36,051 nt of DNA. Origin: Anaerolineae bacterium. Its GTDB lineage: Bacteria > Chloroflexota > Anaerolineae > Aggregatilineales > Phototrophicaceae. The notes below the pieces were generated by a model. The model saw only the letters and a program-made list of their open reading frames with translations. It made no database searches and was not told the DNA's origin. The DNA lies in contig JALHNB010000065.1 in assembly GCA_022843745.1 (NCBI GenBank), positions 1 to 36,051 on the forward strand. Direction: 5' to 3'. Positions 4,172 through 22,131 of this stretch are shown piece after piece (within the stretch, counting starts at the first letter, position 1; each line of letters starts with the position of its first letter). The position numbers and the translations under genes were made by a program.

Positions 4172-4188
4172 CTGACATCCTCTGTCAT
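4172..4188. promoter_or_regulatory. Palindromic operator candidate, copy 1 of 3
   Basis: CTGACA-TCCTC-TGTCAT has 5-bp arms and a 5-base spacer, with the same geometry as the sites at 21630 and 22115. It sits between the PPOX gene (ATG at 4068, minus strand) and the broken gene at 4251 that heads the unit containing the WYL regulator at 4761. On the minus strand it is followed, 22 bases after the ATGACA box, by ATAATG, the same unusual layout as the other copies. Confidence 0.55.
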
Positions 4189-4250
4189 ATTTGCGATAGA
4201 ATTATGCTTAGGCATCCGATCACTAAACTCAATTTGAAAAGGAGGGCCGT

Positions 4251-4741
4251 ATGGCTGCGTGGGATGAGCTTGTCTTGGCGTGTAATCTAAAGAAGGACAT
4301 TTCCCAAGAAGTTATAGATGTTTTACGTTATATGGTTAAACCACTTGAGGACATTGAGGAACAGGCAGTTAATTCTGTCTCTTTACCTGAACATCCATTC
4401 TTTAAGAATAACAGCGAGTGGATATTTTTTTACATGGGGATACTTCTTATTTTCATGGCGAACGTTTCTCAAAATTTTCGATAGATCAGTCCAATTTTTG
4501 CAAATTCACAATCCGTACAATGGTGAGATGGGGAGGCGAGGTTATTGAGTGGTTCCTCCACTGGCTTGCACCGTATAGCGAGACTGAAGGTTTCGTTGGC
4601 TATACACGCTGCGATGAAGTCCCCGAACGGGTTGATCTCATCTACTTTGAAAGTGGTGAGGTTTACTATAAATCAATCGAGATGTGGGAAGACCCGCCGC
4701 ACGTGAGCCGTAGAAAATTAACTCCACGTTTCTTCAAATAA
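4251..4741 (+). pseudogene. Frameshifted hypothetical gene (about 163 residues if repaired)
   Basis: Two frames join into one sensible protein. The first (4251-4484) reads well up to NNSEWIFF, and the second continues as LHGDTSYFHGERFSKFSIDQ and runs to 4741. The break is at a run of seven T (4425-4431); one additional T restores a single frame of about 163 residues. The repaired protein is soluble, rich in aromatic residues, and has no family I recognise. The ATG has GGAGGG upstream (4241-4246). The gene is visibly more AT-rich than its neighbours, which suggests acquisition. The cause may be a sequencing error in the homopolymer, phase variation or true decay. It lies 19 bases before WYL regulator 1 on the same strand. 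Confidence 0.7.
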
Positions 4742-4760
4742 ACTATTGAAAGGCTAACTC

Positions 4761-5714
4761 ATGCGCGCTGACCGCCTCCTCTCCATCCTCCTGACGCTGC
4801 AAGTCCACCAGCGCGTGACGGCGCGGGAACTGGCCGAGCGCCTCGAAGTTTCCGAGCGCACAATTTATCGCGACATGGAAGCCCTCAGCATCGCCGGAAT
4901 ACCCGTGCTGGCGGAGCGCGGCAGCAGCGGCGGTTGGGCGCTTCTGGACGACTACCGCACCGACTTGACCGGACTCAATGCCGCCGAAATTCAGACGCTT
5001 TTTTTGAGCGCCACGCCGCGCCTGCTCGATGACCTGGGGATGCGGCAAGCCTATGAAGCCGCGCTCATCAAACTTCTCGCCGCCCTGCCCTCGATTTCAC
5101 GGCGCGACACCGAGTACGCCCGCCAGCGCATCCACATTGACCCGGCGGGCTGGTTCGAAGCGTCCGAAAATGCCGCTGCCCTGCCGATCATTCAGGATGC
5201 CGTGTGGCAGTCGCGCAAGCTGCGTCTCGATTATGCCCGCAGTGATGGTCAGAGCGTCGAGCGCGTGGTCGATCCGCTTGGCCTCGTGGCGAAAGGCAGC
5301 GTGTGGTATCTCGTCGCGCGGGTCGAAGGCGACCTGCGCACCTATCGGATTTCGCGTGTCCGTGACGCGGTGATTCTGGATGACACTGCCGAGCGTCCCG
5401 CAGATTTTGACCTCGCGGTCTATTGGGAGCAGTCGAAAGTTGAAATGAAGCAGAATTTGCCGCGCTATCAGGCCATCATGCGGATGACCCCGGCGGCGCT
5501 CAAACGGCTGCGGGGTGCGCGTTACGTCCGCATCGAACAGGAGAGTCCGCCGGATGCGAATGGCTGGATATGCGTGTGCGCCGATTTTGAAATTGAGGAT
5601 GTGGCGCGTGAACATGCGCTGCGAGGTGTGCCGGAGATCGAAGTGCTGGAGCCGCCGGAACTCCGCGCCTCGGTGATCGAAATCTTGGATCGCGCTCGGA
5701 CAGTATATAAATAA
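4761..5714 (+). CDS. YafY-type transcriptional regulator, HTH_11 plus WYL domain (regulator 1)
   Basis: This protein of 317 residues begins MRADRLLSILLTLQV. A winged HTH at residues 1-60 contains RELAERLEVSERTIYRDMEAL, the recognition region of the HTH_11 class. The WYL domain spans about 135-240 and contains the name-giving WYL in SVWYLVARVEG, followed by LRTYRISRVRDAVIL, where the conserved Tyr and Arg bind ligand in known members. A WCX-like C-terminal extension completes the protein. WYL regulators sense small ligands or nucleic acid and act as repressors or activators. It is a paralogue of the gene at 22682, and both units start near a TTGACA-N5-TGTCAA palindrome, which is the obvious candidate operator. 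Confidence 0.93.
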   Translation: MRADRLLSILLTLQVHQRVTARELAERLEVSERTIYRDMEALSIAGIPVLAERGSSGGWALLDDYRTDLTGLNAAEIQTLFLSATPRLLDDLGMRQAYEAALIKLLAALPSISRRDTEYARQRIHIDPAGWFEASENAAALPIIQDAVWQSRKLRLDYARSDGQSVERVVDPLGLVAKGSVWYLVARVEGDLRTYRISRVRDAVILDDTAERPADFDLAVYWEQSKVEMKQNLPRYQAIMRMTPAALKRLRGARYVRIEQESPPDANGWICVCADFEIEDVAREHALRGVPEIEVLEPPELRASVIEILDRARTVYK

Positions 5715-5723
5715 TCGGCTTTG

Positions 5724-5752
5724 TTGACTAAAGTAACTTCTCCCTATTTAAA
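5724..5752 (+). promoter_or_regulatory. Candidate sigma-70 promoter for the alpha/beta hydrolase gene
   Basis: TTGACT (5724-5729), 17 bases, then TTTAAA (5747-5752). It lies about 70 bases before the ATG at 5822 in an AT-rich gap between two genes on the same strand. The call rests on sequence match only. Confidence 0.4.
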
Positions 5753-5821
5753 TGCGCAATAGAATATAAGAAGCAGGTCATTTCTGCCTGTTTTCCTATA
5801 GAGATTGGAGCGTTTTTCCCC

Positions 5822-7369
5822 ATGAATAAATTACTACGCTGCGGCCTTGCCGTTGCTTTACTTGCTTTCCTCGGCGTATCCTCTGCTTTTGCGCAGGCAG
5901 ATATTTCCCTCACACCTTTTACCGATGATGCCTTTGGCTTCAGCAGTGTTGCGCCGGATGGCTGGACGCAGCTTGCCCCAGGCGCGTTAGCACGCGGCCA
6001 GTCACCCACTGATGTGGTACGGCTGTTGCAGCAAGTCGCGCCTGTTTCGGAAGAAACAATTTTGAGTTCGTTGACCACGCAGCTAGGACTGGAAGCCGCA
6101 CCCGAGTCTGTCGGCACCCAGCAAACCGCCGCGCTGACCTGGACGCTCTATAAAGTCGATGTCAATGCGGGCAGCACGACAATTGTGGTGGATTTTGCAG
6201 TCGCTCAGGGCGATGGCAAAGCTTATCTCGTATTGCTGCAAGCATCCCCCGAAGAATATGAATCACTGCATGCATCGGTTTTTCTGCCTGTACTGGATGC
6301 GCTCGCGCCTCTCGCGCCCGCTGCCGAAACGACTGAAGAAGTTCCCTACACACAGGAAGAAGTCACCTTCCTCAACGGCGAAATCTCGTTAACAGGGACG
6401 CTCACGTTGCCAGAAGGCGATGGCCCATATCCGGCAGTCGTGCTGGTGAGCGGCAGCGGCCCACAGGATCGCGACGAATCCATTCCCTCGATTGCAGCGA
6501 TTAAGCCTTTCCGACTGATCGCCGATGCGCTCACCCGCGCGGGCGTAGCCGTACTGCGTTACGATGATCGCGGTGTCGGTCAATCGACGGGTGATTTTTC
6601 GTCAGCAACCACCGCCGATTTCGCCACCGATGCCTCGGCTGCTATCGACTATCTCCTGACGCGCGAGGACATCAATCTCGAACAGGTCGGTTTATTGGGA
6701 CACAGCGAAGGCGGCGCGGTTGCGGCGATGCTGGCGGCCAGCCATCCGAATCTGGCTTTTGCCATCTCGATGGCTGGGATGGGCCTGACTGGACGCGAAA
6801 TTTCCTTGTTCCAGAATGCCCATTCGCTGGATTTGCAGGGGATCACAGGTGAGGCCAAAGACGCGATTTTGAGCGCCGTGGGCGAAGCATTTGATCGAAT
6901 TCTGGCTGATGACCCGGAGGGTGCGCAGCAGATTATTCATGACTCGATGCTGGCTTACTTCCAATCACTGCCGGAAGATCAACAGGAACAGATGGGCGGC
7001 GCGGAAGCCGCAGCACAGCAGGCAGCATCTCAGCAAGTCGCGGCATTTTCAAGCGATTGGTTCAAATTTTATCTATCCTATGACCCTGCGGTAGATTGGG
7101 CGCAAACGGAGATTCCCGTTCTGGTCATCTTTGGCGGGCTGGACACTCAGGTGGATGCCGATTTGACCGCACCCGCAGTTGAGGCGGCACTGCAAGCGGC
7201 AGGCAATACCGATTACACCATCGTCACGCTGCCAGAAGCCAATCATTTGATGCAGGAAGCGGTCACGGGCGATGTCAGCGAGTACGGCACACTCAAGCAG
7301 GAATTCGCGCCGGATTTCCTGACGACTCTCACCGACTGGGTGATGAAACACGTAGACCCGGCGCAGTAA
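5822..7369 (+). CDS. Secreted alpha/beta hydrolase
   Basis: This protein of 515 residues has a signal peptide at 1-25 (cleavage after SSAFA). Residues 30-165 form a separate N-terminal domain of unknown type. The hydrolase core starts near 178 with the typical strand and oxyanion region PAVVLVSGSGPQDRDE, then YDDRGVGQSTGDF. The nucleophile elbow is GHSEGG with Ser295, the acid is probably Asp441 (FGGLDTQV), and the base His475 (EANHLMQ). A helical Gln/Ala-rich lid lies at 330-410. Substrate is unknown; an esterase or peptidase acting outside the membrane is likely. A hairpin repeat (7398-7416) follows the stop and may end transcription. Confidence 0.9.
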   Translation: MNKLLRCGLAVALLAFLGVSSAFAQADISLTPFTDDAFGFSSVAPDGWTQLAPGALARGQSPTDVVRLLQQVAPVSEETILSSLTTQLGLEAAPESVGTQQTAALTWTLYKVDVNAGSTTIVVDFAVAQGDGKAYLVLLQASPEEYESLHASVFLPVLDALAPLAPAAETTEEVPYTQEEVTFLNGEISLTGTLTLPEGDGPYPAVVLVSGSGPQDRDESIPSIAAIKPFRLIADALTRAGVAVLRYDDRGVGQSTGDFSSATTADFATDASAAIDYLLTREDINLEQVGLLGHSEGGAVAAMLAASHPNLAFAISMAGMGLTGREISLFQNAHSLDLQGITGEAKDAILSAVGEAFDRILADDPEGAQQIIHDSMLAYFQSLPEDQQEQMGGAEAAAQQAASQQVAAFSSDWFKFYLSYDPAVDWAQTEIPVLVIFGGLDTQVDADLTAPAVEAALQAAGNTDYTIVTLPEANHLMQEAVTGDVSEYGTLKQEFAPDFLTTLTDWVMKHVDPAQ

Positions 7370-7397
7370 TCATCCACACATCACGATTCGTATATGG

Positions 7398-7416
7398 GGG
7401 CGCAAAGCTTGCGCCC
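7398..7416 (+). repeat. GC-rich hairpin repeat, family A; possible terminator
   Basis: GGGCGCAA-AGC-TTGCGCCC has 8-bp arms, preceded by GG and followed by a T-rich run (CTTGCTTTC, then TTTTTACTTTTT). It lies 29 bases after the hydrolase stop. It belongs to the dispersed family described at 10537, 20903, 30072 and elsewhere. Confidence 0.6.
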
Positions 7417-7469
7417 TCTTGCTTTCATTGCTTTTTACTTTTTACTTACCTCGATTCGCGTTTAGGTCA

Positions 7470-9140
7470 TCATGCAAACGCCTTCGGCAGATTCACGCTA
7501 AACCGCATCCCACCTTCCGCCCGGTTTTCCGCCACGATGCTGCCGCCATGCAGTTCAATAATCTTTTTGGTGATCGATAAGCCCAATCCGCTGCCAGCCG
7601 TCAGCGGGCGATGCGCCTCGACACGATAAAAGCGCTCAAATATGGCATCCAATTCCTGAACCGGGATGCCAACCCCACTGTCCTCCACCCTGATTGTGAC
7701 ATTTTCCTGCGCACCGTCGCATGAGACAGTAATTGCTCCCGCATCCGGCGTATATTTGAGCGCATTGTCGATCATATTGCCGAGCGCGATCTCCATCGAC
7801 GCCTGATCCATTGACACGACAGCCACCTGCTTGCAGCTTTTAAAAATTAACTGCTGTGATTTCATTTGTGCCATACTGCTGTAGGAAGATGTCAATTTTT
7901 GGAGAACCAGATTCAGGTCAACAGGCTTACACTCCAAATCCTGATACCCCAGGTTATCCAGCCGCGACTGTACCAGCATTTCCTCAAACATATTTTTCAG
8001 CCGCGCCGTCTGCTCATCAATATGGCGAAGATGCAGATTGCGTTTGTCCTGTGTCTCGACTTTCCGCACCAGATAGCTGCTGCTGCCGATAATGGACAGC
8101 GGGGTCATCAGATCATGCGACATATCGCCAATAAATCGCTGCAAAATTGTGACCCGTTCACGCTCGATTTGCAGCTCAACCTGACGCTTTTCCGCTTCCT
8201 TCCGTGCCGTAATATCAAAGCCGATCACCGCAGCGCCGCCCATCACTGGCACGGCCTGATATTCCCACCATCGGTTCTGTGTGCGAATCTCGGCACTCAC
8301 AGCCATACCCTCGTCCACCACCCGTTTGCATTGGACGAAAAGATCGTGTTGATATACTTCCGGGATAACCTCCGAGATGGGTCGGTTAATGAGCTGTGTA
8401 TAATCGCGTTTGAACTGCTGCGCGACTTTTTTATTCACGTCCACCAGAATAAAATCCTGAATCTGACCGTCTGCGCCGCGCACCGCCTTCAACAGGAAAA
8501 ACATGCCGATACTGGCATCAATGGCCGCGCGGAAATTGCCTTCGCTCTCGGCAAGCTGCCAGTTGCGCAGCTGAAGTTCCGATTCCGCCTGCCATTGCAA
8601 ATGGGATCGGATGACGATCATCATGGAGGTAACGATCAATAGAACCAGGACACCGTAGATTTGCTCCCAGTCGCCGGGGACTAAACGTGAGATTACGAAA
8701 ACCGCCGAGATGGATACAACAACTGTCACGATCAGCCGCTGGGCCGAACGGAACATACTGGCGAAATAGATCGGCAGGAGTGCGATGACTGCCGAATATG
8801 CATCGGCATTGACATACAGCAGCAGGATGGCCAGGGCAATCATTTCGCCGACAAAGAAATTGACACCCAGCAGAACAAAGCGGCTGCGGCTCAATATGTA
8901 GGCAATCGTGGTGGCAACTCCGCTAACCAGTACCACCCTATAACTCCAGATCAACGGGCCATAAACGTTATACAGCACCATTGAAACCAGAATGTGTAAT
9001 GGAATCAGCGCCAGCGTGACCGCAGCCAGCAGCCTTGCTTTCCCACGAAGAACTTCGCTTTCGATATTGGGATAAGGTTTCGTCGCAAAACAACTTGCAC
9101 TTCGAAGTCTGCGTGTAATATCGCCCCAATGATGTATCAT
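7470..9140 (-). CDS. Membrane-bound sensor histidine kinase with PAS domain
   Basis: This protein of 556 residues has about six hydrophobic segments between residues 35 and 178, then a coiled-coil linker. A PAS-like domain follows at about 195-315, ending in the PAC-type IGFDITARKEAEKR. The HisKA H-box is FIGDMSHDLMTPLSII with phospho-acceptor His342. The ATPase boxes are all present: N-box GNMIDNALKYTPD (about 454-466), G1 EDSGVGIP, F-box FERFYR, G2 AGSGLGLSI. The kinase should therefore be active. No response regulator gene is in the window, so the partner is encoded elsewhere. The N-terminal membrane domain is not a class I can name. It is divergent from the MarR gene at 9310. Confidence 0.93.
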   Translation of the reverse strand: MIHHWGDITRRLRSASCFATKPYPNIESEVLRGKARLLAAVTLALIPLHILVSMVLYNVYGPLIWSYRVVLVSGVATTIAYILSRSRFVLLGVNFFVGEMIALAILLLYVNADAYSAVIALLPIYFASMFRSAQRLIVTVVVSISAVFVISRLVPGDWEQIYGVLVLLIVTSMMIVIRSHLQWQAESELQLRNWQLAESEGNFRAAIDASIGMFFLLKAVRGADGQIQDFILVDVNKKVAQQFKRDYTQLINRPISEVIPEVYQHDLFVQCKRVVDEGMAVSAEIRTQNRWWEYQAVPVMGGAAVIGFDITARKEAEKRQVELQIERERVTILQRFIGDMSHDLMTPLSIIGSSSYLVRKVETQDKRNLHLRHIDEQTARLKNMFEEMLVQSRLDNLGYQDLECKPVDLNLVLQKLTSSYSSMAQMKSQQLIFKSCKQVAVVSMDQASMEIALGNMIDNALKYTPDAGAITVSCDGAQENVTIRVEDSGVGIPVQELDAIFERFYRVEAHRPLTAGSGLGLSITKKIIELHGGSIVAENRAEGGMRFSVNLPKAFA

Positions 9141-9289
9141 AAGCAGTCCCCGGTGGTCAATTCAATGTAATTATTCCAGCATACATCCGATTGTCATAAT
9201 TGACCCTAAACCTTTACATTGTGTGATTTCCAGACCTGCCCAAAAGTCCAGTTTCGCTTTACACTAAATTCAATTACCATCAAACTATC

Positions 9290-9305
9290 ATTTAGTATGC
9301 TAAAT
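9290..9305. promoter_or_regulatory. Palindrome before the MarR gene, probable autoregulatory operator
   Basis: ATTTAG-TATG-CTAAAT is a perfect inverted repeat with 6-bp arms ending four bases before the ATG at 9310. A further CTAAAT half-site is at 9264-9269. Self-repression through palindromes over the promoter or start is common for MarR proteins. There is no ribosome binding site between the palindrome and the ATG. Confidence 0.55.
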
Positions 9306-9309
9306 AAAT

Positions 9310-9750
9310 ATGGCGCACAATCCTATTCATCTCACCAACGGCTTCCTGCTCACACAGATTTGCAAACTGCATCGCACCTGCTCCAACCAGCAGCTTGAGG
9401 CGATTGGCATGTACAAAGGTCAGGAGTTAATTATGTGCGAGCTGTGGCAGCAAAACGGCCTCACACAGTCCGATCTGGTTGATCGGCTGGCGGTTCAGCC
9501 CTCGACGCTCACTAACGCACTCAACAGCATGGAGAAATCTGGCCTTGTACAGCGTAAACCGGACGACAACGACCAGCGTGTTTCGCGGGTTTACCTGACC
9601 GAACACGCCAGTGAAATCTGGCCGCAGGTGCAGCAGGTCTGGGACGACATGGAGGCGCGGACATTCGCCAACATGACCATCGAGGAGCGCGTCCTGCTCC
9701 GCCGCCTGCTCATGCAGGTTTACGATAATCTCTCAAATATGCCCGATTAA
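9310..9750 (+). CDS. MarR family transcriptional regulator
   Basis: This protein of 146 residues has the usual MarR length and layout. The winged HTH is in the middle: TQSDLVDRLAVQPSTLTNALNSMEKSGLVQRKPDDNDQRVSRVYLTEHA at about 55-105, with the wing DDNDQRVSR. Terminal helices form the dimer interface. Ligand and targets are unknown. The start lies directly behind a perfect palindrome with no recognisable ribosome binding site, so the message may be leaderless or translated inefficiently. Upstream and divergent is the histidine kinase; downstream is a long repeat-filled gap. Autoregulation is the only regulation the sequence supports. Confidence 0.92.
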   Translation: MAHNPIHLTNGFLLTQICKLHRTCSNQQLEAIGMYKGQELIMCELWQQNGLTQSDLVDRLAVQPSTLTNALNSMEKSGLVQRKPDDNDQRVSRVYLTEHASEIWPQVQQVWDDMEARTFANMTIEERVLLRRLLMQVYDNLSNMPD

Positions 9751-9836
9751 TTTCGAGACTCTATAGAGCGTTGTCCGATACTACTAGCCAGCTTACGTTG
9801 AGGTCACAAAAGGTCATAACGTCCGCCATGAACCCA

Positions 9837-9941
9837 ACCTCACCCCCCAACCGCTGCGCGTCTCCAATGCGTTGGAGAGGGGGAGTCAGACCGATTTGAA
9901 GCCCCTCCCTATTGCTATGGGGAGGGGTTTGGGGTGGGGAT
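9837..9941. repeat. Composite GC-rich palindromic element, family B
   Basis: The outer arms are a C-rich stretch starting at 9837 (ACCTCACCCCCCAACC) and a G-rich stretch ending at 9941 (GGTTTGGGGTGGGGAT). Inside are two hairpins: TCTCCAA-TGCG-TTGGAGA (9862-9879) and CCCCTCCC/GGGAGGGG (9902-9909, 9920-9927). The 18-base core at 9862 is the exact reverse complement of the core at 17602-17619. The rest of the 9751-10096 gap holds a family A hairpin (9971-9986) and no gene. Confidence 0.65.
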
Positions 9942-9970
9942 CGGCTTTTAGTACCGGACAAGCCTTATAG

Positions 9971-9986
9971 GGGCGAGGCCTCGCCC
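9971..9986. repeat. Perfect 16-bp palindrome, family A hairpin
   Basis: GGGCGAGGCCTCGCCC is preceded by TAG, as in other family A copies. The same outer sequence, with a longer centre, recurs at 32660-32679. Confidence 0.6.
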
Positions 9987-10096
9987 AACTGAAACAATAT
10001 CCAAGTCAAGCACATTTATTTGGTAGGCTAATGAAATTCCGAACAACAAATCGCTAAAAAATCGACCTGTTTACTTACTTGAAAGGCACAAATCTC

Positions 10097-10507
10097 ATGA
10101 GCGTATTCACAGCCAATGAACTCGAATTTTTGCTCTCCCAGCGCCTCGGACGGCTGGCGACAGTCAACCCGGAAGGCAAGCCGCAGAACGCACCTGTCGC
10201 CTTCCGCTACAACGCCGAACTCGATGCCATCGAAATCGGCGGACGCTTTATGACCCAGAGCAAAAAGTATAAAAATGTGCTGACCAATCCGCATATCGCC
10301 TTCGTCATCGACGATGTGATCCCGCAGCCCTGGCAGGTGCGCGGTGTCGAGATTCGCGGCACGGCAGAGTCCGTACCCACAGGCGGCAAGCTCATTTTCG
10401 GCGAGGATTATGATGCCGATGAAACGATTATTCGCGTCACGCCCACGCAGATCATCGGCTGGGGACTCGACGGCTCGGCGTATCAGCAAAATAACCGCAA
10501 AGTATAG
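10097..10507 (+). CDS. PPOX-class F420-dependent oxidoreductase family protein
   Basis: This protein of 136 residues has a compact split barrel: LGRLATVNPEGKPQNAPVAFRYN, then IEIGGRFMTQSKKYKNVLTNPHIAFVIDD, then GVEIRGTAESVPTGG and IRVTPTQIIGWGLDG. This arrangement is that of the F420-associated PPOX group (MSMEG_5819-like). A redox role with F420 or FMN is inferred; the substrate is unknown. The ATG at 10097 is chosen over an in-frame TTG at 10079 because GAAAGG sits ten bases before it. It is only distantly related to the PPOX protein at 3595. It is followed by a family A hairpin at 10537-10560 that may terminate the transcript. Confidence 0.87.
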   Translation: MSVFTANELEFLLSQRLGRLATVNPEGKPQNAPVAFRYNAELDAIEIGGRFMTQSKKYKNVLTNPHIAFVIDDVIPQPWQVRGVEIRGTAESVPTGGKLIFGEDYDADETIIRVTPTQIIGWGLDGSAYQQNNRKV

Positions 10508-10536
10508 TCACGCATCTTTAATCACGAACTGCTTTC

Positions 10537-10560
10537 GTAGGGGCGCAAGGCTTGCGCCCT
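10537..10560. repeat. Family A hairpin repeat, possible terminator
   Basis: GTAG precedes GGGCGCAA-GGC-TTGCGCCC, with the outer boxes at 10541-10548 and 10552-10559, followed by TTCTT. It lies 30 bases downstream of the PPOX gene. Confidence 0.6.
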
Positions 10561-10669
10561 TCTTAGTTCTGAGACCCCAGTCCCTTTCTCCTCCCCCAAG
10601 TTCTACGCTTTTCATTACCTCTAAATCAGTGTTCAATAAATAATGAGCCTAATTGTTTGGAGGATCACC

Positions 10670-14038: not shown

Positions 14039-14092
14039 GGTTGTTCCTCATAAATGCCGTTAGCCTGTTTTCATGCGGGCTGCCGTAAACCA

Positions 14093-15539: not shown

Positions 15540-15836
15540 TCACGCCACTTCCGCAGGCCGCTTGAACACGCAAAAATACGTGCTTGTCCAGCCTGCCCGA
15601 CCACCCGCACTGTCTACCGCCAGCACGTCGGCATTATTCCCCACAAACACGGGCTGCATCGTAATCAACTCCCAACCGTCTTTACCGAGCGCGTCCAGTC
15701 GCGGGATCATCGACTCCGGCGTATTGCGCGGGATGCCAGATTTCCAATCCCAATGTTCTTCTAAAAACTCTGTAACCAGCGCCGCCTCCGCCTTCACAAA
15801 AATCGACAAATATTCCCATTCCTGCCGTTCAGCCAT
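15540..15836 (-). CDS. DUF4177-like small protein, tandem copy A
   Basis: This protein of 98 residues is compact and soluble. The segment MIPRLDALGKDGWELITMQPV resembles the core of DUF4177 (a short family whose members contain 'LG..GWELV'). It begins AERQEWEYLSIFVKAEAAL. It is about 80 percent identical by eye to the next gene upstream (15916-16203). Similarity extends into the leader: both have a GGAG-type ribosome binding site about nine bases before the ATG. Function is unknown. Differences are mostly conservative substitutions, so both copies appear to be kept by selection. Confidence 0.8.
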   Translation of the reverse strand: MAERQEWEYLSIFVKAEAALVTEFLEEHWDWKSGIPRNTPESMIPRLDALGKDGWELITMQPVFVGNNADVLAVDSAGGRAGWTSTYFCVFKRPAEVA

Positions 15837-15915
15837 GTTTATTTGCTCCTGTAGAAAAATTGAATATTCACTTGTGATTCAATGTTGCCCAAGGCACGAT
15901 CCGCATCAACCCGTC

Positions 15916-16203
15916 TCAGGCGAGGCGTTTACACACACAGAAATAGGTGCTTGTCCAGCCTGCCCAACCACTCGCACTGTCCACCGCCAATACATCGGCG
16001 TTCGTACCCACATATACCGGCTGCATGGTGATGATCTCCCAGCCGTCCCTGCCCAGCGCGTCCAGTCGCGGGATCATGGATTCCGGCGTGTTGCGCGGGA
16101 TGCCAGACTTCCAGTCCCAATGTTCTTCCAGAAAATCCTTCACCAGCGCCGCCTCCGCCTTCACAAAAATCGTCAGATATTCCCATTCCTGCCGTTGAGC
16201 CAT
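15916..16203 (-). CDS. DUF4177-like small protein, tandem copy B
   Basis: This protein of 95 residues is a paralogue of the protein encoded at 15540. The central 40 residues differ by only a few conservative changes (RDGWEIITMQPVYVGTNAD here, KDGWELITMQPVFVGNNAD in the other copy). The start at 16203 is preferred to an ATG six bases earlier because GGAGG lies eight bases before it. The C-terminus ends in CVCKRLA where copy A has CVFKRPAEVA. The two genes are 79 bases apart on the same strand, so they may be an operon born by tandem duplication. Function is unknown. Confidence 0.8.
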   Translation of the reverse strand: MAQRQEWEYLTIFVKAEAALVKDFLEEHWDWKSGIPRNTPESMIPRLDALGRDGWEIITMQPVYVGTNADVLAVDSASGWAGWTSTYFCVCKRLA

Positions 16204-16358
16204 GTCCATTGCCTCCTGTGTTTGAAAATCCTATACGCATCTCCGTCACACCCGGTTGTAGCAGCATTTTTTTGCGCGACAATGACCTAAAAAGCGGTAC
16301 TTTAGTCCGGCGATGCCCAATGTACGCTTGCAAACCTGCCTGCTCCTTGCTAAAATTT

Positions 16359-16382
16359 TGTGAAATGATGATAGCTTTCACA
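16359..16382. promoter_or_regulatory. Inverted repeat before the metal-domain regulator gene
   Basis: TGTGAAA (16359-16365) and TTTCACA (16376-16382) are perfect 7-bp arms with a 10-base spacer, ending 19 bases before the ATG at 16402. The position suits autoregulation by the HTH protein that follows. Confidence 0.5.
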
Positions 16383-16401
16383 TAAAATCACAAGATATAA
16401 C

Positions 16402-16974
16402 ATGACGGCTGATTTTCCCCGGCAGCGACAAGAGCAGATTTTAGAATGGTTGCGAACACAGGGTTTCGCGACAGTTGAAGCGTTGGCCTCGCGCTTGAGC
16501 GTTTCCACCATGACGGTACATCGCGATCTGGATCGTCTGGCGAAAGCCGGGGCGGTTCAAAAAGTTCACGGCGGTGTCGAATTGATGGTCGCAAAGCCCG
16601 CGACTCAGCCGCATATCCCGACGTGTTCGCTGTGTCATGCCGAAGTGCCTGCCCGTACCACATTTATGGCGCAAAACGCAGCCGGTGAAAAATTTCACGC
16701 TTGTTGTTCGCACTGTGGTTTACTGTTGCTGGCGGAAAACGCGCATTTAATCTCAGCGCTGGCGCGGGATTTTATCTATGGTCGCATGGTCAACGTCGCG
16801 CAGGCCATCTACGTGATCGAGAGCCGTGTTCATCTGTGTTGTGTCCCGAGCGTCTTGTGTTTCACAGGCCGCGAAGATGCCGACTCGTTTCAGCGAGGAT
16901 TTGGCGGTCAGGTCATGACCTTTGACGAAGCGCGGCACTACATGAGCCATCATCACTCGACCCACCACGAATAA
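16402..16974 (+). CDS. DeoR-type HTH regulator fused to a TRASH/NosL-like metal-binding domain
   Basis: This protein of 190 residues has an N-terminal winged HTH of the DeoR class at residues 7-60 (RQEQILEWLRTQGFATVEAL, then LSVSTMTVHRDLDRLAKAGA, then VQKVHGGVEL). The usual sugar-phosphate sensor of DeoR proteins is absent. In its place is a Cys/His-rich segment: Cys75-x2-Cys78 (TCSLCHAEV), then HACCSHCG (Cys101, Cys102, Cys105), then HLCCVPSVLCF (Cys146, Cys147, Cys153). It ends with REDADSFQRGFGGQVMTFDE, which strongly resembles the C-terminal part of NosL-type copper proteins, and a His-rich tail (HHHSTHH). A copper- or other metal-responsive repressor is inferred. An inverted repeat lies just upstream, and an envelope protein gene follows on the same strand. 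Confidence 0.82.
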   Translation: MTADFPRQRQEQILEWLRTQGFATVEALASRLSVSTMTVHRDLDRLAKAGAVQKVHGGVELMVAKPATQPHIPTCSLCHAEVPARTTFMAQNAAGEKFHACCSHCGLLLLAENAHLISALARDFIYGRMVNVAQAIYVIESRVHLCCVPSVLCFTGREDADSFQRGFGGQVMTFDEARHYMSHHHSTHHE

Positions 16975-17051
16975 TTCACGGGAAAAACAGGTTTTTATGA
17001 TGGAACTTACCATCAAGCCTGAAATTATGACTAATCCATAGGAGATCAAAG

Positions 17052-17573
17052 ATGAAATTGCGTTTAATTGGCTTACTACTGCTGCTGATGTCCCTGTTCG
17101 CGATGCCCGCCCTGGCGCATGAAGGCCGCGAAGTCGGAGAATATACGCTGGTCTTCGGCTGGCGTGTCGAGCCTGCCCTCGCGGGTCTGCTGAACGGCCC
17201 GGAAATTACCCTCGGCCTGCACGATGCCGATCATGACGCTGAATGGCCCGCGGATATTGTCGTTGCGTTACAGGCGGAAGTCACGTTTGGCAGCGAATCA
17301 GCAACACTCCTGCTGGAAGAAGATCATAACGAACCCGGACACTTCATCGCGGACCTGATCCCGACCCTCCCTGGCGATTACAACTTCCGCGTTTTCGGCA
17401 CGATTGGCGATACGGCAGTCGATGAAACCTTCACGTCCGCTGATGGCGAATTCAGCACTGTCGAGCCTACCAGCGACATTATGTTCCCGCAGGCAGGCAT
17501 CGCCGATGTCGCCGCGCTGCTGGCTCGCATCGACGCGCTCGAAGCCCGCCTCGCCGCCCTCGAAGCCGAATAA
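17052..17573 (+). CDS. Exported protein with beta-sandwich-like domain and coiled-coil tail
   Basis: This protein of 173 residues has a signal peptide at 1-22 (cleavage after MPALA), giving a mature N-terminus HEGREVGEY. Residues 23-145 look like a beta-sandwich with many Asp, Glu and His residues (GLHDADHDAE, LLEEDHNEPGHF, LPGDYNFRVFG), which recalls exported copper-handling proteins of the CopC/YtkA kind, though I cannot assign a family. The last 25 residues form a perfect short leucine-zipper-like helix (VAALLARIDALEARLAALEAE), so oligomerisation is likely. The gene is 77 bases downstream of the metal-domain regulator with GGAG before its ATG. A role in periplasmic metal handling is an inference from that position and the His/Asp content. 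Confidence 0.78.
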   Translation: MKLRLIGLLLLLMSLFAMPALAHEGREVGEYTLVFGWRVEPALAGLLNGPEITLGLHDADHDAEWPADIVVALQAEVTFGSESATLLLEEDHNEPGHFIADLIPTLPGDYNFRVFGTIGDTAVDETFTSADGEFSTVEPTSDIMFPQAGIADVAALLARIDALEARLAALEAE

Positions 17574-17598
17574 AACGCAGCATAGTAACTTTCTCCCT

Positions 17599-17624
17599 CC
17601 CCTCTCCAACGCATTGGAGAGGGG
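17599..17624. repeat. Family B hairpin between convergent genes
   Basis: CCCCTCTCCAA-CGCA-TTGGAGAGGGG has perfect 11-bp arms and a 4-base loop, and continues into TTGGGGGTGAG. It lies between convergent stop codons (17573 and 17642), so it could serve as a two-way terminator. Its core is the reverse complement of the one at 9862-9879. Confidence 0.65.
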
Positions 17625-17641
17625 TTGGGGGTGAGCTTAAT

Positions 17642-18226
17642 TTACGACTTCCGCACCCCCAACCAATAACCCACGCCAACCACCACCAATCCCACGCTAA
17701 CCGCTGCGATGATCGCGATGCCGGAAATGCCGCTTGGCGGTGTGGGTGGAATGGCTATAGTTTCGCCGCTTTCCATACGCTCGACCTTAAGCAAAATCGC
17801 GTCCGGCATCCCCAGATCAATGTGTTCGGCATCGGACATCACCGCACACACTCGCCACGTCCCATAGGGGATATGCCCGATAACCTCGTTCTGATAATAC
17901 ATGCCCCACACGCCGTTATTCAGCCACAAATGCCAGTGCCGCTGCGATTCGTCCTCATCCGTCCCCGGCAGATCGAAATTCTGCGTCTCGACTAAAAAAT
18001 TGACCGTCGCGAATGGGTCTTCGCTGCTGCGGATCGTCGTGCCGGAGACAGGCGACACAATTTTAATCCTCGGCGCGTCCGGCTCGCTGTCATTGGGACG
18101 ATCCGGCGAAAGCACTTGCAGGCAGTCCTGCATGATCGTCTCAGGATTCGGCGTTGGTGTCTGCGCGGAAACCCACGAAGTCGCCGTCATGACCAGCACC
18201 AACGTGACAATTCTTAAAATCCGCAT
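17642..18226 (-). CDS. Membrane-anchored exported protein, DUF4399-like
   Basis: This protein of 194 residues has a signal peptide at 1-21 (MRILRIVTLVLVMTATSWVSA), an extracytoplasmic domain of about 140 residues, and a C-terminal membrane anchor (GIAIIAAVSVGLVVVGVGYW) ending in LGVRKS. The domain contains PRIKIVSPVSGTTIRSSEDP, then RHWHLWLNNGVWGMYYQNEV and IPYGTWRVCAVMSDAEHIDLG, the order of strands seen in DUF4399-like beta-sandwiches of exported, often metal-associated proteins. Two Cys and several His could bind a metal. A topology with a short inner tail is clear. It is convergent with the preceding exported protein gene; whether they act together is uncertain. Confidence 0.75.
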   Translation of the reverse strand: MRILRIVTLVLVMTATSWVSAQTPTPNPETIMQDCLQVLSPDRPNDSEPDAPRIKIVSPVSGTTIRSSEDPFATVNFLVETQNFDLPGTDEDESQRHWHLWLNNGVWGMYYQNEVIGHIPYGTWRVCAVMSDAEHIDLGMPDAILLKVERMESGETIAIPPTPPSGISGIAIIAAVSVGLVVVGVGYWLGVRKS

Positions 18227-18338
18227 CTGCGCCTCAATATCTCTGTTTTAATGTGTGAAGTTCTATCCCCTCCCACCTCACCGCTGCCATAAACCACGTC
18301 TGTTGTAGGGGCTTCCCCATCGAAATTTCGTGTCATCC

Positions 18339-18836
18339 TCATGTTTTCTTCCCCGGCTTGGCGGCCTTCTGGCGGATATTCAATGCCTGCTCGTTATAAA
18401 GCTGCGTCGTCGCCGTGACGTAATCGAGGATCGTGCGCAGTTGGTCGTCGCTGTAACGGGACATGATGGCGGCGTTGGCCTCCATAAAATCCTTGAACAG
18501 CACCTGAGCTTCTGGAGAACTCTGAGTCACAGTCGCCTTCAGCAAAACTTTGCGGCGATCTTCCGGCGCGGCAACCCGTTGGATAAACCCCGCCTTCTCG
18601 ATCCGATCCAGCACAGCGGTGACGGTGCCTGTCGATAAGCCCGTGATCTCCGCGAGCTGCCCCGCCGTGATCGGCTGCCGCTGGGCAATCACGTCGATGC
18701 ACTTATAGTCGGTCAGGTTCAGGCCAAGCTGATCCGCAATCGCCGAATGGAACAAGACCACGCCGGTTGAGTTTTTTCGACCCTCCTCCGACAACTGTCG
18801 AAGAATTTCATTTCGTGAGGATTCGCTACTTGACAT
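18339..18836 (-). CDS. MarR family transcriptional regulator
   Basis: This protein of 165 residues has the MarR core: LNLTDYKCIDVIAQRQ, then the HTH ITAGQLAEITGLSTGTVTAVLDRIEKAGFIQR, and the wing VAAPEDRRKVLLKAT, with C-terminal dimerisation helices and a basic tail (RQKAAKPGKKT). AGGAGG precedes the ATG by four bases. It is divergent from a FAD-dependent monooxygenase gene, and the short gap between them contains two tandem palindromes. That layout is typical for a MarR repressor controlling a detoxifying enzyme in response to its aromatic substrate; the ligand itself is unknown. Confidence 0.93.
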   Translation of the reverse strand: MSSSESSRNEILRQLSEEGRKNSTGVVLFHSAIADQLGLNLTDYKCIDVIAQRQPITAGQLAEITGLSTGTVTAVLDRIEKAGFIQRVAAPEDRRKVLLKATVTQSSPEAQVLFKDFMEANAAIMSRYSDDQLRTILDYVTATTQLYNEQALNIRQKAAKPGKKT

Positions 18837-18865
18837 TCAACCTCCTTTTGATTTATTCTAACATA

Positions 18866-18898
18866 TATCTCGATTTTCGAGATACTCGTTTTTCGAGT
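18866..18898. promoter_or_regulatory. Tandem MarR-type operators
   Basis: TATCTCGATTTTCGAGATA (18866-18884) has 8-bp arms around TTT. ACTCG-TTTTT-CGAGT (18884-18898) repeats the same core 16 bases further on. Both share CTCG-N5-CGAG. They lie 29 bases from the MarR start and 46 bases from the monooxygenase start, so one bound repressor pair could control both genes. Confidence 0.75.
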
Positions 18899-18944
18899 TA
18901 AATAAGTTGTGAGCGAATTATACGCGACAACCGGAGGAGTAACC

Positions 18945-20159
18945 ATGAAAATCAATAACCCAAAAGCCATCATCATCGGTGCGGGGGTCGCTGGCCCGGT
19001 CATCGCCCTCTTTCTGCAACGGGCTGGGATCCAAGCGGAAATTTACGAAGCCCGCCCCCAGGACTCGACAGGCTGGTTTCTGAATCTCGCCGGAAACGGC
19101 ATGGACGTGCTGAAAACATTGGGCATCGAAAAGCCCATCATGGCCGAGGGATCACCTGTCCCGCAGATGGTCATGTGGAGTGGAAACGGCAATCGGCTTG
19201 GCGAAGTTCGCAACGGGGCGCGGGCAGGGTTGACCGAAAGTGTCATCATTCGGCGCGGGGAGCTACAGCGCTGCCTGCACGATTCCGCCATGAAACAAGG
19301 CATTCGCATCCATTTCGGCAAAAAACTGCGTGATATTCAGACGACAGCGCAAGGGGTGACGGCTATTTTTGCAGACGACACGACAGCGCAGGGCGATTTT
19401 TTGATCGGATGCGACGGCGTTCACTCGCGCACCCGTCAGATTATCAGCCCGGACGCGCCCAAGCCACACTATACCGGACTGGTCAGCACGGGCGGGTTTA
19501 CCAACAATCTCGACCTGCCGCCGACACCCTCGACCCAGCATTTTATCTTCGGCAAGCGTGGATTTTTTGGCTATCACGTCCGCGCGTCCGGCGAAATTTA
19601 TTGGTTCAACAATCATGGACGCGCCCAGGAGCCAGGCCGCACCGAACTCACGCAGATCGTCAGCGAAGACTGGCAGCAGCGCCTCCTAGAGATGCACCGC
19701 GACGATTTGCCGATCATCAACCGCATCATCGAGTCCACGCAGGATGGTATCGGCGCATACCCGATTTACGACCTGTCCCCACAACCCATCTGGCACAAAG
19801 GCCGCGTCGTGCTGGCGGGTGATGCCATCCACGCCATTTCGCCGAGCGCCGGACAGGGTGCGTCACTGGCGATGGAGGATGCCGCGATCCTGGCAAAGTG
19901 CCTGCGCCACAATCACGATCTGGAAACTGCATTCTCGACCTATGAAACGCTGCGCCGGGAGCGTGTAGAGCGCATGGTCAAGTGGGCGCGAAGCATGGGC
20001 GGTGCGAAACTCGCCAGCGGCCCGATTCAAATCTGGTTTCGCGATCTGCTCATGCCCTTTTTCCTGAAATTCGCGACCAATCCCGCCGCGCTCGATTGGG
20101 TTTACGCCTACGATACGGGCTGGGATGCCGCCAAATTAGAACCTGAACCCTCGTTCTAA
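18945..20159 (+). CDS. FAD-dependent monooxygenase (PHBH/TetX-like flavoprotein)
   Basis: This protein of 404 residues starts at the ATG preceded by GGAGGAG. All class A flavoprotein monooxygenase motifs are visible: the dinucleotide-binding GAGVAG with the following acidic residue in EIYEARP (residues 10-40), the DG motif GCDGVHSRTRQ (about 155-165), and the GD motif VVLAGDAIHAISPSAGQGASLAMEDA (about 290-310). It should hydroxylate an aromatic or antibiotic-like substrate with NAD(P)H and O2; the exact substrate cannot be told. It is divergent from and probably repressed by the MarR protein next to it. A hairpin (20172-20196) follows the stop. Confidence 0.92.
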   Translation: MKINNPKAIIIGAGVAGPVIALFLQRAGIQAEIYEARPQDSTGWFLNLAGNGMDVLKTLGIEKPIMAEGSPVPQMVMWSGNGNRLGEVRNGARAGLTESVIIRRGELQRCLHDSAMKQGIRIHFGKKLRDIQTTAQGVTAIFADDTTAQGDFLIGCDGVHSRTRQIISPDAPKPHYTGLVSTGGFTNNLDLPPTPSTQHFIFGKRGFFGYHVRASGEIYWFNNHGRAQEPGRTELTQIVSEDWQQRLLEMHRDDLPIINRIIESTQDGIGAYPIYDLSPQPIWHKGRVVLAGDAIHAISPSAGQGASLAMEDAAILAKCLRHNHDLETAFSTYETLRRERVERMVKWARSMGGAKLASGPIQIWFRDLLMPFFLKFATNPAALDWVYAYDTGWDAAKLEPEPSF

Positions 20160-20171
20160 AGACGACATTGT

Positions 20172-20196
20172 AAGGGCAGGTCTGAGAACTGCCCTT
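20172..20196. repeat. Family A hairpin, probable terminator
   Basis: AAGGGCAG and CTGCCCTT are 8-bp arms around a loop beginning GTCTGAGA; the right arm is followed by TTGTA. It lies between the convergent monooxygenase and GyrI-like genes. The loop wording recurs in the hairpin at 35916-35938. Confidence 0.6.
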
Positions 20197-20213
20197 GTAT
20201 AAAACCGGCGTCC

Positions 20214-20849
20214 CTATCTCCTGCGCATGGGCTGGCGGATGATCGTGCGCAGTTTTTCCGGCGCGGATCGGCGCGGATCACCCAGGTGAATTTCATGATG
20301 CCGCCCTGTCGGCGCATAACCCTGCTCGTCAATGTAGCTGTGAAGGCGGTCAAGCGTGGGTTTTTCGGCCTCATATGACCCGATGTGCATCGTCTGCACC
20401 GCTAACCCCTCGGTGAAGCTTTCGAAACGCGCTTTGTCCAGCGCAGCCGGATTTTTCTTACGGCGCAGTTCGGCGCTTGCGTCCTTCACCATTTCCAGCG
20501 TGATATGCTCAGGCTGCATCATCATGATCGTCCACAGCCAGAGGTTTTTGTCGGCAGTAAAGTCGAAATCGCCATATTGCTTTCCCATATCCTCCATCCA
20601 CCACAGCCCTTCCAGCGGCATTACCGCGTAGTCGATTCCGGCGTTTTTGCTGGCAAATTTGAGTGTATAGGACAGGCCGTTCAGAACTTCCAGTCCCTGG
20701 TGAAATTCAAGCGCCGTGTTGGGGTCGCCTGTGCCGTCGATCATGATAAAGTTCATCGCCGGGACATCGACCTCGACCACTTTTGCCGTCGGCGCATGGT
20801 ACAGGTGCTTGAGCTGCTTCTTGAGGTCAATTTTTTCCATTGTCATCAT
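20214..20849 (-). CDS. GyrI-like small-molecule-binding protein
   Basis: This protein of 211 residues belongs to the stand-alone GyrI-like group (the ligand-binding domain also seen at the C-terminus of AraC- and MerR-type drug regulators). Signature parts are VVEVDVPAMNFIMIDGTGDPN, LKFASKNAGIDYAVMPLEGLWW, VQTMHIGSYEAEKPTLDRLHSYIDEQGY and the last strand HHEIHLGDPRR. There is no DNA-binding domain. Such proteins sequester or hydrolyse small toxic compounds in studied cases. The first of three in-frame ATGs is used because AAGGA lies six bases before it. The C-terminus is basic (RQPMRRR). It is next to DinB and DUF1801 genes, families often found with WYL regulators. Confidence 0.88.
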   Translation of the reverse strand: MMTMEKIDLKKQLKHLYHAPTAKVVEVDVPAMNFIMIDGTGDPNTALEFHQGLEVLNGLSYTLKFASKNAGIDYAVMPLEGLWWMEDMGKQYGDFDFTADKNLWLWTIMMMQPEHITLEMVKDASAELRRKKNPAALDKARFESFTEGLAVQTMHIGSYEAEKPTLDRLHSYIDEQGYAPTGRHHEIHLGDPRRSAPEKLRTIIRQPMRRR

Positions 20850-20902
20850 GAGATTTCCTTTCGTGTGATTGGGTTGAGGATGGCGTTGGGTGATATGTTT
20901 TC

Positions 20903-21047
20903 GTAGGGGCGCACAGCCGTGCGCCCTCTGTTGTCATTTGCAGGCTGAGGATTTTGCTCGCCCCAAAAAGGGCCTTTCGATTACCTTCACCCTCTATCAT
21001 TTTTGTCAGGTCGGGTTTCCATTGGGCGCACAGCCGTGCGCCCCTAC
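20903..21047. repeat. 145-bp MITE-like unit with hairpin termini
   Basis: The unit begins with GTAG plus the 20-mer GGGCGCACAGCCGTGCGCCC (20907-20926) and ends with the identical 20-mer (21024-21043) plus CTAC (21044-21047). The outer ends are therefore inverted repeats (GTAGGGGCGCAC and GTGCGCCCCTAC). The interior of about 97 bases holds no gene. Each terminus is itself a family A hairpin. It occupies most of the 20850-21113 gap; the remainder contains a short (CTATCGA)-type repeat at 21059-21108. Confidence 0.55.
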
Positions 21048-21113
21048 AAAGTTAATCGCTATCGACTATCGACAACCTATTTCGACTAAAGACTATCGAC
21101 TATCGACGACCTG

Positions 21114-21575
21114 TTATCCAATCCACCCCCGCCACTGCTCACCCAGCGGCTTGCCCATCGCCCGCAGGTACACATCGCACTTGCCGCACCAGATCAGAAC
21201 CGCCTCGCGATAAATATGGAACTGTGTGCGGAATGGCACAGGCCACCCGCGATCAATCGACTTGCTGAGAAAATCCTCGTCCGAGATCGTGTTTAGCACC
21301 GCGTCAAATTCGTCGTCCAGCGCCTTGTACCACGCCTTCAATTTTTCGACGCTGCCGCTAAGTCCCGAATCGGTGTTTCGCTTGTCCCACACCTGCTTGC
21401 CCGTTTTGAACGAATCAATGTATGAGCGCTCCACATCGCCCATATACACGCACAATTCGCCCAACGTCGGATTATTCGGAAATTTGAAGGCCAGATCAGC
21501 GTCCGTCAGCGTCTCCATCATCGCTGTGCGCAGCGCTGTCGTTTCATGCAGAATGTTCAGTTCATGAGCGTCCAT
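21114..21575 (-). CDS. DinB family protein (1)
   Basis: This protein of 153 residues is a four-helix bundle of the DinB/YfiT type. It opens MDAHELNILHETTALRTAMMETL, has NNPTLGELCVYMGDVERSYIDSF in the region where the family carries its first metal-binding His, and ends with a helix containing IYREAVLIWCGKCDVYLRAMG. The classical three-His site is not intact here, so metal binding is doubtful. The ATG at 21575 is chosen because GGAG is seven bases upstream; a longer frame to 21626 would include the promoter region. The palindrome at 21630-21646 lies 55 bases before the start, so it probably belongs to the WYL-linked regulon. Confidence 0.85.
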   Translation of the reverse strand: MDAHELNILHETTALRTAMMETLTDADLAFKFPNNPTLGELCVYMGDVERSYIDSFKTGKQVWDKRNTDSGLSGSVEKLKAWYKALDDEFDAVLNTISDEDFLSKSIDRGWPVPFRTQFHIYREAVLIWCGKCDVYLRAMGKPLGEQWRGWIG

Positions 21576-21629
21576 TTTTGTTCTCCTTGTGGTGTTGCTC
21601 AATCTTGACTCTATTATGCGCCACAATCC

Positions 21630-21646
21630 TTGACACCCTGTGTCAA
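21630..21646. promoter_or_regulatory. Palindromic operator candidate, copy 2 of 3
   Basis: TTGACA-CCCTG-TGTCAA is perfect over 6-bp arms (7 with the inner C-G pair). It is upstream of the DinB gene starting at 21575 and overlaps the stop codon of the DUF1801 gene at 21643. On the minus strand the TTGACA box is followed after 22 bases by CATAAT. About 26 bases around it match copy 3 almost exactly (AATCCTTGACA, then TGTGTCAACAATT). Confidence 0.7.
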
Positions 21647-22065
21647 CAATTGATATTCATTGGCCCGCGCTGCTTGTTCAGGTGATAGGTCAGCGCCATC
21701 GCGATGCAATCCTTCAACGCTTCGACAGGGATTTCGTCCATATCGTCGAAAAGGATGCTGCGATTTTCTTCATAGTGGAACTCCATCGGGTAAATTTGCC
21801 GGAAAGTCTCCACCAGCGTCGTCCGGCAGATAAAATACATCGCCACCTGCTCACCCACCCGGTCAATGCGGATCGTGCTGCCTGTCGGAGTCAGGTAGCT
21901 CGGCTGACCCCATTTGAGCGTTTCCTCAATTTCGCCCACACTTGGCGTTTCGGACGCAGTTTCATAGATGAGTTGGCGCACAAACATCATTTTTGATCGG
22001 AGATTTTCAGGGTAAGAATCAAAAACCGCCGCGACTTCCGGGTTTTGCATCGTCGTCTGCATCAT
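21643..22065 (-). CDS. DUF1801 domain protein
   Basis: This protein of 140 residues matches DUF1801: the opening NPEVAAVFDSYPENLRSKMMFVRQLIYETASE, then IEETLKWGQPSYLTPTGSTIRIDR with the family's characteristic 'KWG.P' element, then VAMYFICRTTLVETFRQIYP. The fold is known from structural genomics but no activity is established. AAGG lies eight bases before the ATG. The palindrome at 22115-22131 is 50 bases upstream, shared with the divergent DinB gene. Transcription might continue into the DinB gene at 21575, although that gene also has its own copy of the palindrome. Confidence 0.87.
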   Translation of the reverse strand: MMQTTMQNPEVAAVFDSYPENLRSKMMFVRQLIYETASETPSVGEIEETLKWGQPSYLTPTGSTIRIDRVGEQVAMYFICRTTLVETFRQIYPMEFHYEENRSILFDDMDEIPVEALKDCIAMALTYHLNKQRGPMNINC

Positions 22066-22114
22066 AATTTACACCTTGTATACGCTCAATTTCTATCATC
22101 ATAATGCCCAATCC

Positions 22115-22131
22115 TTGACAGCTTGTGTCAA
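22115..22131. promoter_or_regulatory. Palindromic operator candidate, copy 3 of 3, between divergent genes
   Basis: TTGACA-GCTTG-TGTCAA lies between the DUF1801 gene (minus) and the DinB-WYL unit (plus). On the plus strand an extended -10 (TGTTATACT, with TATACT at 22142-22147) lies 21 bases after the TTGACA box. On the minus strand TATGAT lies 22 bases after it. Confidence 0.7.

Follow-up and report, generated by a model that had tools for sequence, protein, structure and literature searches.

Described WYL regulators and the locus studied here

SiwR of Mycobacterium smegmatis is a WYL regulator with targets from the DinB superfamily, the dinS operon (PMC10693628). A SiwR variant in which both arginines of the helix-turn-helix (HTH), four residues apart, are changed no longer supports induction, and a conserved GGA triplet lies in the region needed for activation (PMC10693628). 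DriD of Caulobacter crescentus is an activator whose arginines contact guanines of ATACGAC-N7-GTCGTAT, a site centred on the -35 (PMC12340889, a preprint). Here we describe a palindrome, TGACA-N5-TGTCA, that occurs three times in a 36,051-nt stretch of DNA from an Anaerolineae bacterium (assembly GCA_022843745.1, contig JALHNB010000065.1, positions 1-36,051, forward strand; hereafter the window), near genes for two WYL regulators, WYL1 and WYL2, and for proteins of the PPOX, DinB, DUF1801 and GyrI-like families. It is the predicted operator of a cross-phylum group of YafY-type WYL regulators and probably serves the activation of a divergent partner gene.

SiwR and DriD are the nearest described systems. 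The likeness to SiwR is one of layout and of residues; the 19-bp SiwR palindrome is placed from -35 to -10 (PMC10693628). Both systems have regulators with the domain order winged HTH (wHTH)-WYL-WCX, divergent genes of the DinB superfamily (glyoxalase-like in some species) and a palindrome in a short intergenic promoter (PMC10693628). The HTH arginines R38/R42 and the WYL-domain arginines R204/R207 of SiwR are spaced like R33/R37 and R195/R198 here, and its GGA triplet is similar to an RGR that is read toward the partner gene here; site 1 of the window reads GAGGA toward PPOX. The SiwR orthologues described are from Actinobacteria, whereas here the place of the partner is also taken by PPOX, short-chain dehydrogenase, GyrI-like and other genes. 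We found the SiwR-type layout, in which the operator separates the WYL gene from a divergently transcribed gene of the DinB superfamily, in six WYL2-type loci and on a Tsukamurella plasmid; in the variant seen in the window, DUF1801 and DinB2 intervene between DinB1 and WYL2. SiwR already provides a published case of a WYL regulator that combines a palindromic operator with DinB targets (PMC10693628), whereas the original prediction, made from the window alone, knew of no described regulon of such composition.

The GAC-N7-GTC spacing of DriD is contained in TGACA-N5-TGTCA, and its promoter, too, is bidirectional (PMC12340889). In both systems a degenerate -35 coincides with the middle of the site and the -10 follows at a fixed distance, the promoter positions here being predicted. 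The recognition helices share RT..R, and DriD is the best PDB fold match (8tp8, 8tpk, 9pfq, 9pfv). The full consensus ATACGAC-N7-GTCGTAT, however, does not fit: the half-site here is TGACA, with variable outer bases and without ATAC..GTAT. DriD also has several targets (didA, bapE, recJ, dnaG), and sequence identity is 18-20%. PafBC (PDB 6sj9, 7p5x, 9fnd) is similar in domain order, in being an activator and in sequence and fold matches, but is a heterodimer with a large DNA-damage regulon.

BrxR and CapW (PMC9122601, PMC9122589) are WYL regulators as well, and the inverted repeats bound by BrxR stand upstream of its own gene, with a gap of 5 bp between them. They differ in that they repress phage-defence operons and in that BrxR makes its base contacts through SRQQ. 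A PADLOC scan of five window proteins, in which WYL, Cas3c and mad1 models matched the regulators only and none matched DinB1, DinB2 or PPOX, gave no support for a defence role of the BrxR/CapW type. A literature search for operators surfaced SiwR, DriD and BrxR and none for this WYL group; searches for TGACA-N5-TGTCA in the spellings tried found no occurrence in print, with most subscription papers outside their reach.

A conserved palindrome upstream of WYL genes

To describe the conservation of the palindrome, we used two sets of WYL2 relatives: a family set drawn from 98 genomes that belong to the window's family (37 of them matched at 1e-20; 48 of 57 matches were taken) and a cross-phylum set of the best 80 relatives among the matches listed from genome_contigs. 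The 400 bp upstream of each WYL gene were scanned for all 1024 5-mer inverted repeats with spacers of 0-12. TGACA-N5-TGTCA ranked first, with 46 of 48 family loci and 60 of 80 genome_contigs loci, the latter from several phyla, while the best palindrome not nested with it reached 15 of 80. As originally predicted, the palindrome thus accompanies WYL regulators, and it marks PPOX and DinB promoters across phyla. Exact sites were found in Chloroflexota, Bacillaceae, Streptomyces, Bradyrhizobium and a Luteitalea. On six plasmid records, the site was exact in Tsukamurella, Burkholderia pyrrocinia and Staphylococcus xylosus and had one mismatch in the other three.

After removal of duplicates, 103 of 125 loci had an exact site, in 98 cases at most 150 bp upstream of the start; seven of the 22 siteless loci had a site with one mismatch. 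The spacer of 5 is specific, since the other twelve spacers together yielded a single locus, and only five sites lay elsewhere in the 1.15 Mb of loci. In a control stretch (-1100 to -690), sites with up to one mismatch occurred in 2 of 123 loci, both of them exact and one of them site 2 of the window. The restriction to one spacer and to a narrow position makes it extremely improbable that the palindrome is due to chance or is non-regulatory (a terminator or RNA hairpin), even though sites distant from WYL genes look largely random, 31 of 40 chosen ones lying inside mechanically called open reading frames (ORFs). A terminator scan of 21500-22250 found none at sites 2 and 3.

The three sites of the window

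The original prediction described three sites with the geometry TTGACA-N5-TGTCAA. The palindromes are real, and sites 2 (21630-21646) and 3 (22115-22131) are exact copies of this 17-mer; beyond it they share six bases on the left (CAATCC) and five on the right (CAATT), in agreement with the flank likeness that had been noted. Site 1 (4172-4188, CTGACATCCTCTGTCAT), however, has two mismatches and lacks the outer TT/AA, and the unit common to all three is the exact inner 15-mer TGACA-N5-TGTCA. It occurs three times in the window against 0.04 expected, and at least three copies arose in none of 100 shuffles. At up to three mismatches the 17-mer is not enriched in the window (15 found, 13.2 expected).

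In the 7.96-Mb genome there are three exact 17-mers, two of them in the window (reversed control 0), and 21 exact 15-mers (reversed control 2). Four of the 21 are at WYL loci of one class, three in the window and one on another contig (C13); many of the other 17, whose neighbours were inspected, lie inside long ORFs. An enrichment of the 17-mer near DinB, DUF1801, PPOX and WYL genes in related genomes, which had been proposed as a check, was not seen: within about 1.5 kb of 18 exact 17-mer loci inspected among those of the 98 family genomes, tblastn at 1e-3 found no homologue of WYL, PPOX, GyrI, DinB1, DinB2 or DUF1801. In one of the 18 (L062:1501-2594), the exact 17-mer precedes a DinB_2 gene by about 0.44 kb, with no WYL gene in view. 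As the conserved unit, the 17-mer with its outer TT/AA was discarded: site 1 deviates from it, and no WYL or window-gene homologue was found by tblastn at these 18 loci.

The WYL regulators

WYL1 and WYL2 both exceed the Pfam cut-offs for PF08279, PF13280 and PF25583, which, together with the fold match, confirms the wHTH-WYL-WCX family. Their recognition helices, predicted to be nearly identical, are identical across LEVSERTIYRD, while WYL2 as a whole is 43% identical to WYL1 and 48% to the C13 copy. The host genome has eight WYL genes, of which these three carry the helix SERTIYRD, and all three have the site upstream; the other five have no exact site within about 3.2 kb. All 130 WYL proteins compared have R33, T34, R37 and D38, and the first three of these residues align to DriD, the top PDB fold match. 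Residues 32-44 form a single helix in an AlphaFold2 model of WYL2.

In the WYL domain, R195 is present in 123 and R198 in 102 of 130 proteins, and WYL1 and WYL2 have both; the match of these arginines to R204/R207 of SiwR is by spacing only. Since they are largely kept, nucleic-acid sensing by the WYL domain of this group is plausible.

Spacer asymmetry, promoter phasing and probable mechanism

Read toward the WYL gene, the second base of the spacer is C in 99 of 104 sites and the spacer begins with YCY in 79 of 104, with no YCY in the opposite direction. The usual form in this reading is TGACA-YCYNN-TGTCA; RGR therefore points at the partner. On the partner side, exactly 12 bp separate the operator from a predicted -10-like hexamer in 63 of 103 loci (shuffle maximum 9). 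A second hexamer, taken 17 bp above this -10, falls in the centre of the operator and matches TTGACA at only 0-2 of six positions in 54 of the 63, so that these partner promoters are without a -35 consensus. The window hexamers GATAAT, CATAAT, TATGAT and TATACT, judged by eye, obey an 11-12 bp rule; from site 1 toward WYL1, no clear -10-like hexamer was seen by eye at this distance.

For binding, activation and ligand we infer the following. In a WYL homodimer, R33 and R37 of the recognition helices would reach into the GAC of one half-site and the GTC of the other; by analogy to DriD, the half-sites would be spaced by 10 bp and exposed on the same side of the double helix. The operator would occupy the place of the partner's -35, with the -10 fixed 12 bp beyond it. 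Because of this replacement at a fixed distance, the bound dimer would most likely activate the partner, and perhaps its own gene, once the WYL domain has bound its signal. This may be another ligand or, following the example of SiwR and DriD, a nucleic acid. Activation is also favoured because DriD shares the GAC-N7-GTC spacing and the -35 placement, and because the SiwR variant with changed HTH arginines loses induction.

The same operator could instead serve an auto-repressor, a WYL dimer that would block RNA polymerase at both divergent promoters until released by a ligand. The operator covers part of the region in which the -35 of each gene would be expected, and a regulator that adjoins its own target is common among repressors. 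BrxR represses from inverted repeats (PMC9122601/PMC9122589). Yet the partner promoters are without a -35 consensus and keep an exact distance from operator to -10, as at promoters activated by DriD, and the systems nearest in structure or gene context, DriD, PafBC and SiwR, are activators; we therefore consider auto-repression unlikely, although it is the main rival of activation.

Several observations weigh against activation from an operator common to the whole group. In a first actinobacterial set, made up of six plasmid loci and of the 30 loci that matched one siteless Micromonospora copy most closely, the exact site was present in 7 of 36 and TGAGA-N5-TCTCA was commoner (8 of 36). In a second set, 6 of 20 sites were exact, four had one mismatch and ten had two or more. 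Two of the five siteless WYL proteins of the host genome also read RTIYRD (SKRTIYRD, DRRTIYRD), so that the helix alone does not predict the operator. By our ORF rule there is no divergent gene in 29 of 106 loci, and a WYL-side -10 at 11 bp is rarer than its counterpart, with 24 of 103 (shuffle maximum 11). The phasing puts the site at about -39 to -25, whereas the SiwR palindrome spans -35 to -10 (PMC10693628). Finally, the geometry could also be that of a repressor with a weak promoter as its target, and BrxR and CapW are repressors.

A wider reading, in which our confidence falls somewhat short of even, is that a single grammar, TGACA-YCYNN-TGTCA as a -35 substitute 12 bp from the -10, would mark cross-phylum nucleic-acid-sensing WYL activators, each wired to one interchangeable detoxification gene, and that the outer base, together with residues 32, 36, 55 and 59 of the recognition helix and wing, would make up a specificity code that can be read from sequence and prevents paralogous modules in the same cell from interfering with each other. 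Helix and outer base covary strongly without tree correction, with few independent changes. On the tree, 3 of 18 changes of the left outer base fall on branches with a change of residue 32 (0.5 expected), and the left-side G class is a single event; we keep the specificity code only as a possibility.

Close kin of the Micromonospora WYL copy (L307, L308, L310-L315) have TGAGA-N5-TCTCA in the position of TGACA-N5-TGTCA, a possible specificity switch.

Partner genes and modules

A divergent ORF lies within 250 bp of the site in 77 of 106 loci. Pfam assignments for 72 partner ORFs, tallied over the first 25 of 36 families, comprise short-chain dehydrogenases (21, mostly from related Bacillaceae), GyrI-like proteins (14), alpha/beta-hydrolases (9), PNPOx (6), glyoxalases (5), DinB_2 (3) and major facilitator superfamily proteins (2), plus others. 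Judging from their families, the partners may detoxify small molecules. In three loci from Bacillota (L100, L118, L339), the WYL gene is divergent from a gene for a UvrA-like ABC protein, annotated as excinuclease UvrA in L339; one copy with a UvrA-like partner sits on a Staphylococcus xylosus plasmid typed as mobilizable.

Searches by tblastn with the window proteins found the arrangement PPOX-operator-WYL1 in seven distinct loci elsewhere, DinB1-operator-WYL2 in six distinct loci and GyrI-operator-WYL in six, one of which has DinB1 behind GyrI. DUF1801 and DinB2 had been predicted as operator-linked targets as well, but no second case of either beside the operator appeared in the loci searched (tblastn 1e-4), and their linkage is seen in the window only.

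Most copies would form a private module of regulator, operator and one enzyme or transporter gene. In the window, PPOX and WYL1 would be joined by site 1, and DinB1-GyrI, DUF1801 and DinB2 would belong with WYL2 through sites 2 and 3. The original prediction had proposed one shared regulon, in which WYL1 and WYL2 would each control all three sites. The two regulators do have identical SERTIYRD helices and the sites identical half-sites, which makes cross-talk between the modules possible. In addition, the stretches spanning the -10 of PPOX and DUF1801 (4141-4161 and 22086-22106, minus strand) are alike in 18 of 21 bases, which suggests that a promoter-leader segment was copied or that both have a leader element in common; their pattern, composed after both had been seen, has two matches against 0.02 expected. 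However, the regulators are only 43% identical, the flanks differ between sites 2/3 (CAATCC..CAACAAT) and site 1 (TGTCATATTT), and each module is conserved alone in other genomes. We therefore regard the window as two mostly private cis modules, PPOX/WYL1 with site 1 and DinB1/GyrI with WYL2, and a shared regulon as rather improbable. The flank TGTCATATTT of site 1 is also found in five PPOX-WYL loci (L195, L200, L201, L204, L212).

Sites away from WYL genes

From among the matches listed, we chose 40 matches to TGACA-YC-N3-TGTCA that are not of the WYL2 type, a non-random choice that favoured the YCY spacer. A wide trans regulon was rejected, as 31 of the 40 lie inside mechanical ORFs and 9 do not, with no common type of neighbour apart from two loci (L255, L265). 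In these two, GTGACA/TGTCAC sites are followed by a similar small gene (VSNRVLK..), and neither locus shows a WYL homologue. One of the 31 in-ORF sites (L256) is followed by a gene homologous to PPOX of the window, with 49% identity and no Pfam match at 1e-3, and another site (L273) precedes a GyrI-like gene and has CAATCC..CAACAAT flanks like sites 2 and 3. Neither locus has a WYL homologue in its 3.6 kb, which suggests that these operators are rare trans targets. A further locus (L281) has a distant WYL gene, about 0.9 kb away from its site. For five genomes that do not belong to the window's family, the 15-mer was counted 14, 4, 3, 4 and 1 times, against 1, 1, 0, 3 and 0 for reversed controls.

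Features of the window

The coordinates of the features are given in Table 1. Site 1, which the original prediction placed at the head of the unit that ends in WYL1, lies between PPOX and an ORF pair followed by WYL1. The prediction did not mention the GyrI-like gene (20214-20849) or the apparent frameshift in the ORF pair. This pair looks like one gene broken by a frameshift near a run of T, and no homologue of it was found in the loci searched by tblastn with window proteins. The PPOX protein also has matches below the cut-off to F420-dependent PPOX models. For the GyrI-like gene, no operator of its own was found at up to one mismatch. The interval between DinB1 and GyrI (20860-21110) contains short direct repeats (GTCGATAG) and two copies of an inverted repeat, GGGCGCACGGCTGTGCGCCC.

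Table 1. Operator sites, predicted promoter elements and genes of the two modules in the window. The -10-like hexamers are predictions read by eye.
Feature	Position	Strand	Remarks
Predicted operator site 1, TGACATCCTCTGTCA	4173-4187		Between PPOX and WYL1 unit; exact 15-mer
Predicted operator site 2, TGACACCCTGTGTCA	21631-21645		Upstream of DinB1; right end overlaps DUF1801 stop codon; exact 15-mer
Predicted operator site 3, TGACAGCTTGTGTCA	22116-22130		Between DUF1801 and DinB2-WYL2; exact 15-mer
-10-like GATAAT	4156-4161	-	11 bp past site 1, toward PPOX
-10-like CATAAT	21613-21618	-	12 bp past site 2, toward DinB1
-10-like TATGAT	22098-22103	-	12 bp past site 3, toward DUF1801
-10-like TATACT	22142-22147	+	11 bp past site 3, toward DinB2-WYL2
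PPOX (PNPOx_N) gene	3595-4068	-	PF01243, 4.4e-11; likely target of site 1
Hypothetical gene	4251-4741	+	Two overlapping ORFs, apparent frameshift; between site 1 and WYL1
WYL1 regulator (HTH_11-WYL-WCX)	4761-5714	+	Pfam domains
GyrI-like gene	20214-20849	-	PF06445, 7.9e-11; probable extra member of WYL2 cluster
DinB1 (DinB_2)	21114-21575	-	PF12867, 8.6e-6; likely target of site 2
DUF1801 gene	21643-22065	-	PF08818, 5.6e-11; divergent from DinB2-WYL2 across site 3
DinB2	22172-22678	+	PF12867, 2e-8; first gene of DinB2-WYL2 unit
WYL2 regulator (HTH_11-WYL-WCX)	22682-23644	+	Pfam domains; AlphaFold2 model with mean predicted local distance difference test (pLDDT) 85.1 and predicted template modelling score (pTM) 0.63

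Significance for the WYL family

WYL/YafY regulators form a very large and mostly uncharacterised family, and operators were found in print for few of them (SiwR, DriD, BrxR). As far as the literature searched goes, the conserved operator of a wide WYL group, the phasing to the -10 and the exchange of partners are new. Operator, position, partners and phasing were established by computation; a conserved operator with a fixed promoter geometry would allow sequence-based target prediction for many WYL regulators. The wiring of the group is directly testable, as the site usually lies between the regulator and one neighbouring enzyme gene, and a test of activation versus repression is at hand. The predicted operator also connects DinB, PPOX and GyrI-like proteins, enzyme families about which little is understood, with a sensor that has DNA-damage detectors among its relatives.

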